From: Pelagicoccus enzymogenes
Lineage (GTDB): Bacteria > Verrucomicrobiota > Verrucomicrobiia > Opitutales > Opitutaceae
Length of the DNA: 64,000 nt
Assembly (NCBI RefSeq): GCF_014803405.1
Contig: NZ_JACYFG010000061.1
Span: 186,001-250,000, forward strand
Reading direction: 5' to 3'
Notes under the pieces: generated by a model
Told to the model about the DNA's origin: nothing
The model's database searches: none
The model's input: the letters and a program-made list of their open reading frames with translations, nothing else
Part shown: one piece after another, positions 43,710-53,151 of the stretch
How positions within the stretch are numbered: position 1 is the first letter of the stretch
How the letters are laid out: the number at the start of each line of letters is the position of its first letter
Position numbers and translations under genes: made by a program

Positions 43710-44231
43710 TTACTTGGCTTCTTCTTCCTTCTTGGTCTCTTCTGCCGCTGGAGCTTCCGCTTCGGCTGCTGGAGCTTCTTCGGCTGAAGCTTCCGCTTCA
43801 GGAGCCGCTTCCTCAGCTGCTGGCTTTTCAGCCTTCTTAGCCTTAGGCTTGTTCTTCTTGCCGTAGCCTTCGTCGTCAGCGTCGATAAGCTCGATCAAAG
43901 CCATTTCAGCGGCGTCGCCACGGCGTGTGCCGATCTTGTAAATACGAGTGTAGCCACCGTTGCGATCCTTGAACTGCTCAACCTTTTCTTCGAACAACTC
44001 ATGTACGACGTCTACGTCGCGAACGCGAGAGATCGCAATGCGGCGGTCATGCAGGGAGCCCTTCTTGGCAAGAGTAATGACCTTCTCTACGAATGGACGG
44101 AGCGCCTTTGCCTTCTTGAGGGTCGTCTTGATGCGGCCGCGCTGGATGAGCGCTGTTGAAAGATTGGCGAGGAGAGCTTCGCGGTGCTCCTTCTTTACGC
44201 CGAGTTGATTACGATGCTTGCGGTGACGCAT
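43710..44231 (-). CDS. rplQ: 50S ribosomal protein L17 with acidic C-terminal tail
   Basis: A 173-residue protein whose first ~120 residues are normal L17 (MRHRKHRNQLGVKKEHREAL, GRIKTTLKKAKALRPFVEK, TRIYKIGTRRGDAAEMALIE). The usual length is about 116-130. The remaining ~50 residues are a Lys-Ala-Glu repeat-like tail (KKNKPKAKKAEKPAAEEAAP, then Glu/Ala to the end). L17 binds 23S rRNA near the exit tunnel. It is the last gene of the alpha-type operon, 24 bases after rpoA. Confidence 0.95.
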   Translation of the reverse strand: MRHRKHRNQLGVKKEHREALLANLSTALIQRGRIKTTLKKAKALRPFVEKVITLAKKGSLHDRRIAISRVRDVDVVHELFEEKVEQFKDRNGGYTRIYKIGTRRGDAAEMALIELIDADDEGYGKKNKPKAKKAEKPAAEEAAPEAEASAEEAPAAEAEAPAAEETKKEEEAK

Positions 44232-45987: not shown

Positions 45988-46518
45988 CTAGACGCGACGA
46001 CGCTTAGGAGGACGGCAGCCGTTGTGAGGGATGGGTGTCGTGTCAGTGATCGAGGAGATCTCGAGACCGAGCGTTTGGAACGCGCGAATCGCGGAGTCAC
46101 GACCCATTCCAGGTCCCTTGACTTCGATCATTACTTCCTTCAAACCGTGCGCCATCGCCGCCTTAGCAGCGTTTTGGGTGACGATCTGGGCAGCGTAAGC
46201 AGTGGACTTACGGGAACCACGAAAATTCATTTTACCAGCGCTGGCCCAAGAGATGGTGTTCCCCTTGAGGTCCGTAATGGTTACGATGGTATTGTTGAAT
46301 GTGGCGCTGACCTTCGCGATGCCGGTAGTAATATTCTTACTACCCTTGGCCTTGCGAATCTTGAGCTCGCCGATCTCTTCCTTGAGGAGATCCTGAGCCG
46401 TTGGTTGCTTCTTGACACCACCAATGAGCTCTTCTTCGACAGGAGCTTCCGCCTCTGCACCTTCGGCAGCGACGTCCTTCGCTTCTTCTTCTTCAGCTTT
46501 TACTTGTTCTTCAGACAT
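45988..46518 (-). CDS. rpsK: 30S ribosomal protein S11 with acidic N-terminal extension
   Basis: A 176-residue protein; residues from about 55 on are typical S11 ([40 protein letters not shown], and the C-terminus [16 protein letters not shown]). S11 is usually near 129 residues, so about 47 extra residues stand in front: [20 protein letters not shown], continuing Glu/Ala-rich to about residue 32, then [12 protein letters not shown]. The ATG 46518 is the first in frame and is 16 bases after the rpsM stop, so the extension is likely translated. Confidence 0.95.
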
Positions 46519-49093: not shown

Positions 49094-49720
49094 TTAACCG
49101 CGGAGACGCTTATAGTCTTCGTAGGTCTTGAGCTTCTTGAGGCCATCGAGAGTCGCCAGCACGATAGCGTTCGGGTTGTTGGAACCGAGAGACTTTGTGA
49201 GAACGTTCTGCACGCCTGCCGCTTCGAGAACCGCACGAACACCGCCACCAGCAATGATACCGGTACCCGTGGTCGCTGGACGGAGAAGAACCTTGCCGCC
49301 ATCGAACTCGCCGAGGACCTCGTGCGGGATGGTGTCACCCTTGAGCTTTACTGGCTCGAGGCTCTTGCGAGCTTGCTCAGTGCCCTTGCGGATAGCTTCA
49401 GGAACTTCGTTCGCCTTGCCGTAACCGATTCCGACTTGACCGGATTGGTCACCAGCGACGACGAGAGCGGAGAAGCTGAAGCGACGTCCACCCTTAACGA
49501 CCTTGGCGCAACGGTTAATGAATACTACCTTTTCGGAGATTCCGTCGTCTTCGCGCTCTTCGCGTTGCCCACGAGGACCGCCGCGACCGCCACCTGGACC
49601 ACGACCGCCTGGACCACGGTTGCCCCCTGGACCACGATTTCCGCCTGGACCGCCTGGGCCGCGGTTACCACCTGGACCAGAACGACCTGGCCCGCCTGTG
49701 TTTTGCTGTGAAGTCATCAT
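49094..49720 (-). CDS. rpsE: 30S ribosomal protein S5 with Gly/Pro/Arg-rich N-terminal extension
   Basis: A 208-residue protein; S5 proper begins near residue 60 ([20 protein letters not shown]) and contains the fidelity-related [20 protein letters not shown] and [20 protein letters not shown]. Ahead of it are about 55 residues of low-complexity sequence built from GPGG, GNRG and RGPGG units ([20 protein letters not shown] and onward). The start has two adjacent ATG codons. No similar tail is known to me for this protein in model bacteria, though Arg/Gly tails on ribosomal proteins do occur. Confidence 0.95.
49562..49696 (-). repeat. Low-complexity GPGG/RGPGG coding repeat in rpsE
   Basis: About 135 bases encode consecutive [11 protein letters not shown] and GRGPGG units. 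On the plus strand this reads as repeated CCTGGACC and CCGCCTGG blocks. Such repeats can expand or contract by slippage. Confidence 0.8.
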
Positions 49721-52815: not shown

Positions 52816-53151
52816 TTATGCTTCTGTGCCGGACTCCGCTGCGTGGGCTTCCTGTTCCGCTTCAACTTCAGCAAGAGTCTTCTTGCCGAGCATTGGAGCG
52901 CGCTCCGTTACCTTGACGAGGCGCCAGCGCTTGAGGCGGCTGAGTGGACGAGTTTCCATGATCTCAACCTTGTCGCCGAGGCGCGCGGTGTTTTCCTCGT
53001 CGTGTACGTGAACGACGGTCTTGCGGTTGATTACCTTGCGGTAGCGAGGGTGAGCCTTCTTGTAGCTGTAGGTCACCTTGATGGACTTGTCGCCCATAAT
53101 GGAGGTGACAACGCCCTGAAGGTCTTTTCTCTTGTTACGTGAATTTTCCAT
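52816..53151 (-). CDS. rpsQ: 30S ribosomal protein S17 with C-terminal extension
   Basis: A 111-residue protein, longer than the usual 80-90. The S17 OB-fold is intact (RKDLQGVVTSIMGDKSIKVT, NRKTVVHVHDEENTARLGDK, VEIMETRPLSRLKRWRLVKV), followed by about 25 extra residues ending in an Ala/Glu-rich stretch, EVEAEQEAHAAESGTEA. The tail matches the acidic tails on S11 and L17 in this cluster. Confidence 0.95.
   Translation of the reverse strand: MENSRNKRKDLQGVVTSIMGDKSIKVTYSYKKAHPRYRKVINRKTVVHVHDEENTARLGDKVEIMETRPLSRLKRWRLVKVTERAPMLGKKTLAEVEAEQEAHAAESGTEA

Follow-up and report, generated by a model that had tools for sequence, protein, structure and literature searches.

Is the unusually long C terminus of uS17 in Pelagicoccus enzymogenes a working part of the ribosome, or is it a dispensable appendage? 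It is easy to write off lineage-specific ends of ribosomal proteins as disordered filler, and extra ends of this kind on S17 are already known from other bacteria. In the stretch analyzed here (64,000 nucleotides of contig NZ_JACYFG010000061.1, hereafter the window), rpsQ lies at positions 52816 to 53151 on the minus strand and encodes a uS17 of 111 amino acids (aa). Within the ribosomal cluster the gene is flanked by those for L29 and L14, as expected of bacterial uS17, and the product matches Pfam PF00366 over residues 13 to 80 (86.6 bits; cutoff, 25.9) and NCBIfam TIGR03635 over residues 8 to 79 (90.4 bits; curated cutoff, 88.7). The core, residues 1 to 85 (52897 to 53151, minus strand), is defined by these family profiles, by PDB alignments, and by AlphaFold blocks with pLDDT values of 77 to 92 over residues 11 to 90. 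AlphaFold2 models it as a five-strand OB barrel (strands 10 to 19, 23 to 30, 43 to 50, 61 to 67, and 75 to 83), and the Foldseek matches of the model were bacterial S17 chains.

Beyond the standard fold, where the profiles have stopped at residues 79 to 80, lies a tail of 26 residues (residues 86 to 111, PMLGKKTLAEVEAEQEAHAAESGTEA; 52819 to 52896, minus strand). The protein is thereby 27 aa longer than the 84-aa S17 of E. coli, in good agreement with the original prediction of about 25 additional residues. Among the 60 PDB matches listed of 88, three weak ones (6xyw, 9evs, and 8a22) have a stretch past query residue 89. The tail has no Pfam match, and a search of the genome with this short query found no second copy, the one match being the tail itself. 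Alanine and glutamate account for 12 of its 26 residues, compared with 15.7% in proteins of the ribosomal cluster (binomial P of 2.4e-4, to be read as post hoc because the tail was chosen for its makeup), and it is acidic, with a median net charge of -4 in the genus. Two parts can be told apart by a short comparison of related genomes: a strongly conserved proximal half, residues 86 to 100 (PMLGKKTLAEVEAEQ; 52852 to 52896, minus strand), and a drifting acidic Ala/Glu end, residues 101 to 111 (52819 to 52851, minus strand). A helix is predicted across the junction, at residues 93 to 106 (52834 to 52875, minus strand). In the AlphaFold2 model, built from a 27-row alignment, the barrel is well modeled and this helix has low confidence, with pLDDT blocks of 54 and 52.

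The two halves differ in how they evolve. Across six Pelagicoccus genomes with tails of equal length, pN/pS was 0.130 for the core (codon bootstrap, 0.055 to 0.222) and 0.093 for the whole tail (0.017 to 0.203), intervals that overlap and are rough because they come from uncorrected pairwise counts on related genomes. When the tail was split after residue 15, a boundary set after viewing the alignment, codons 1 to 15 gave 0.000 and codons 16 to 26 gave 0.274. With all eight genomes of the genus, the proximal value was 0.036 (0 to 0.092) versus 0.142 (0.068 to 0.235) for the core, again with overlapping intervals; 13 of 15 proximal tail residues were invariant, as were 72 of 85 in the core, and tail length differed in 2 of the 8. 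Synonymous difference in the first 15 tail codons was ~0.61, versus 0.35 to 0.39 in the core, which places the constraint on the protein, with no sign of conservation of the DNA or RNA sequence itself. At the protein level, the proximal 15 residues experience purifying selection no weaker than that acting on the core, and the last 11 drift.

We then compared S17 regions, none longer than 20 kb, drawn from 80 of the S17-positive genomes: 7 from the same genus, 26 from the rest of the family, 17 from other families of the order, 10 from the class, and 20 from elsewhere in the phylum. For the class and the phylum, genomes were taken from the best-scoring S17 matches listed (for the phylum, roughly one per family), so this part of the sample leans toward high-scoring S17. 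Tails of 22 to 26 aa were present in all eight members of the genus, window included, and the other family members all had tails of 13 to 42 aa (26/26). Elsewhere in the order, 16 of 17 genomes had tails of 1 to 9 aa; tails were 0 to 7 aa in 10/10 genomes of the class and 0 to 10 aa in the 19 of 20 phylum rows used (L062, from G152, was misaligned and left out). The exception in the order, G046 (L043), carries a 48-residue acidic tail within an otherwise short-tailed branch, apparently a separate gain. Tails of at least 13 aa also occurred in 47 of 80 named loci, which are the closest matches to the window S17 and in part the same species as the sampled genomes; the best of them, at 98%, belongs to Pelagicoccus sp. 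SDUM812005, in a set from which records of the window's own genome may be missing. The tail is a lineage trait of the genus and family. An S17 of this length is uncommon, as had been supposed, among PDB relatives and the sampled Verrucomicrobiota outside the family. Searching the open-license literature by titles and abstract openings, we found no report of S17 tails in Verrucomicrobiota. Taken together, the Pelagicoccus tail holds up as a genuine extension of a familiar protein, conserved and specific to its lineage, and a modest variant of a feature whose kind is known.

The family does not share a single tail, however. The motif [ST]E.DV is found in the tails of 20 of the 26 other family members and of 34 of the 80 named loci, but in none of the eight genomes of the window's genus; these have PMLGKKTLAE(V/F)EAE instead. 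Within the 54 motif-bearing tails, a set picked by the motif and with some species repeated, the motif begins 7 or 8 residues past the core in every case (54/54) and is followed by [VIL]PTK in 43. These Opitutaceae-type sister tails, mostly with VPTK, have the same position, a similar length, and a conserved proximal segment, as in Pelagicoccus, but their sequence is unlike that of the Pelagicoccus tail, and they may be a separate elaboration. Three metagenome-assembled records titled Akkermansia muciniphila (L101, L129, and L152) also encode an S17 with the [ST]E.DV tail; their names look wrong.

In a tree built by a quick method from twelve other ribosomal proteins (57 rows, with SH-aLRT as its only support measure), the motif-bearing genomes fall on one branch (support, 98) and the genus, together with two allies whose tails are 13 and 16 aa, on another (support, 100). 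The genus branch joins the short-tailed families (support, 95), so that the tree divides what the genome database treats as a single family. On this topology, tail presence requires at least three changes, which may be two gains plus G046 or one gain and one loss plus G046; if the family is truly one branch, a single gain plus G046 is enough. The PMLGKKTLAEVEAEQ type and the [ST]E.DV type may therefore have arisen separately. Two conserved tail types at one spot make a small, testable case of ribosome diversification. A bolder proposal is that the uS17 C terminus was lengthened at least twice in Opitutales by unrelated, individually conserved segments (PMLGKKTLAEVEAEQ and [ST]E.DVA...PTKT), in which case this part of the 30S body would be a hot spot where lineages add a binding element for a putative assembly or regulatory partner; we regard this as a long shot.

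One way to acquire a tail is read-through after stop codon loss, which predicts a shorter S17-L14 gap in tailed genomes. The family as a whole displays no clear shortening, and we rejected this origin as a general account. The median gap was 21 bases in the genus (n = 7), 33.5 in other family members (n = 26), 38 in other families of the order (n = 17), 34.5 in the class (n = 10), and 13 in the rest of the phylum (n = 18 with a gap); short gaps thus occur in tail-less genomes too. For Pelagicoccus itself, a read-through origin is possible.

What might the tail do? That its first half is nearly unchanged among close relatives suggests that the tail is probably a small functional element of the ribosome. 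A parallel is offered by the uS17 of Thermus thermophilus (PDB 1fjg and others), which has a C-terminal helix and tail at the same end and of similar length. According to excerpts of PMC3359968, these elements bring ten further residues into contact, extending the interaction with 16S rRNA helix h11 and reaching h20 and h27 of the central domain, and the helix does not stay helical when simulated apart from the ribosome. The Thermus contacts have been seen, whereas the Pelagicoccus tail is known from sequence and a model, in which it is weakly predicted to be helical. The two tails have no detectable sequence similarity; the phmmer alignment ends at Pelagicoccus residue 86 or 87. Foldseek aligned the model to Thermus S17 over 104 columns at ~14 angstroms rmsd, and the helix is therefore not placed alike in the two. 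Lineage-specific uS17 extensions visible on the ribosome are also described, in the portion of PMC10085706 available, for Cutibacterium acnes and Mycobacterium smegmatis, but those are N-terminal, at the opposite terminus from the Pelagicoccus tail, and make contacts near h7/h9.

We lean slightly toward a reading in which the 30S body is the docking site for the proximal part of this lineage-specific extension, which leads into the weakly predicted helix, and the distal acidic end stays loose. The proximal segment Pro-Met-Leu-Gly-Lys-Lys would pack beside S17, close to h11 and h20/h27, a region occupied in Thermus by the unrelated helix, and could reinforce the connection that S17 makes between the 5' and central domains in assembly; the distal Ala/Glu end probably has no fixed structure and faces the solvent. 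This reading is consistent with the confinement of tails of at least 13 aa (8/8 in the genus and 26/26 in the family, versus 1/17 in other families of the order), with the low proximal pN/pS (0.00 to 0.036, versus 0.130 to 0.142 in the core), with the helix modeled at residues 93 to 106, and, by analogy, with the rRNA contacts of the Thermus helix and tail. The low confidence of the modeled helix, the lack of sequence similarity to the Thermus tail, and the behavior of the Thermus helix in simulation argue against it. Passages of PMC7356742 give S17 a role in 5'-domain assembly and in RsuA binding, and the accessible text of PMC11711686 links uS17 with uS12 and h21; in the part of PMC7203096 available, we found no mention of S17. 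The acidity of the tail does not favor direct rRNA contact beyond what the lysine pair Lys90/Lys91 might make.

If the tail touched rRNA, its presence might be reflected in the 16S helices nearby, and the genomes that could be compared were few: 16S was found in 4 of 57 by RF00177 search and in 20 of 57 by DNA query, none of them the window's own genome. Helix h7 was 22 nt in all order members compared, with G037 and G038 as the sole short-tailed comparators; h11 (47 nt in all) and h9 (also equal) were constant across the order members compared, with G037 as the single short-tailed comparator. No length difference in h20/h21 was seen among three tailed genomes and E. coli, a set that has no short-tailed member of the order. 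Helix h10 does not follow the tail, because it is 12 nt in both short-tailed G037 and G046 with its 48-aa tail and 22 nt in the tailed family. Only for h6 (E. coli positions 61 to 106; L166-L182) is there a weak lead, a longer helix accompanying the tail in the few Opitutales compared: 46 to 48 nt in the tailed family, 56 nt in G046, and 38 to 40 nt in two short-tailed order members. Tail-less E. coli has an h6 of 46 nt, however, and h6 is not among the listed S17 contacts.

Alternatively, the tail could be a neutral, disordered, low-complexity appendage, since at solvent-facing ends Ala/Glu/Lys-rich sequence may come and go at little cost. The distal 11 residues, variable in sequence and length with a pN/pS of 0.27, behave in this way, the pLDDT of the tail is low, related genera have quite different tails, and L17 and S11 carry similar low-complexity sequence throughout the order. 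Such an appendage would not be expected to keep its first 15 residues nearly invariant while synonymous sites differ by ~0.61, nor would sister genera be expected to hold [ST]E.DV at a distance of 7 or 8 residues past the core in every one of the 54 tails of the motif-chosen set, and we consider neutrality of the whole tail unlikely, although it deserves serious weight. A docking site for a lineage-specific protein partner (an assembly factor, a hibernation factor, or another ribosomal protein) rather than for rRNA is more doubtful still. The segment is conserved, acidic, and weakly helical by prediction; its acidity, together with the constancy of h7, h9, and h11 in a thin sample, leaves room for such a partner, and extensions are known in protein-protein use, for example the C. 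acnes bS16 extension that binds uS4 (PMC10085706, same portion). No candidate partner came to light, and the searches of Pfam and of the genome, the latter with a short query, yielded nothing beyond the tail itself. Docking of the proximal half on the 30S body remains our preferred reading.

The original prediction had also grouped S17 with S11 and L17 as proteins ending in the same residue types. This was right for L17, whose C-terminal Ala/Glu/Lys tail covers residues 118 to 173 (43713 to 43880, minus strand; the Pfam L17 match ends at residue 116), but not for S11, which is extended N-terminally by 57 residues ahead of its core (residues 1 to 57; 46348 to 46518, minus strand) and whose C terminus is the normal end of the domain. 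In pairwise alignments of S11, S5, and L17 the extensions were not placed at the ends, and length differences alone were used. In the genus, Ala and Glu do abound in each of the three extensions (S17 tail, median of 46%; S11 N-terminal extensions, 35 to 42%; L17 tails, 49 to 60%), and to this extent a shared trend is present, weakly. Joint enrichment, such as a charge adaptation to salt, would predict that the extensions occur together, and they do not. In other families of the order, all 14 genomes with a listed L17 (of 17) have an L17 tail (23 to 134 aa), and the same 14 have an extended S11 N terminus (13 readable lengths of 48 to 199 aa, counted from the most upstream Met in the open frame, and so possibly overestimates; the fourteenth was judged on the last 24 residues ahead of the core), but 13 of these 14 have S17 tails of only 1 to 9 aa. 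In addition, the S17 tail is of a different type in 20 of 26 sister genomes, and the Ala/Glu-rich end of S17 is its drifting part, without strong constraint. There is no joint Ala/Glu program of the three proteins, and a common adaptive cause is very improbable.

Three other ribosomal proteins in the window merit mention. S5 (49094 to 49720, minus strand) is 41 residues longer than E. coli S5 and has a Gly/Pro/Arg-rich N terminus. For L22 (54476 to 54898, minus strand), the listed TTG start overlaps S19, and an internal ATG 29 codons later, just past the S19 stop, is the likelier start. The S11 extension ends in a conserved segment of 20 residues (38 to 57; 46348 to 46407, minus strand), which looks more conserved than the low-complexity part of the same extension. 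The motif A[EQ][DE]LLKEE occurs within the 24 residues ahead of the S11 core in 8/8 members of the genus and, among the 23 other S11-bearing members of the family, in 21; a looser form resembling ..LL..(L/I/V)..K[IV]R[KR]A is present in order members with S11.
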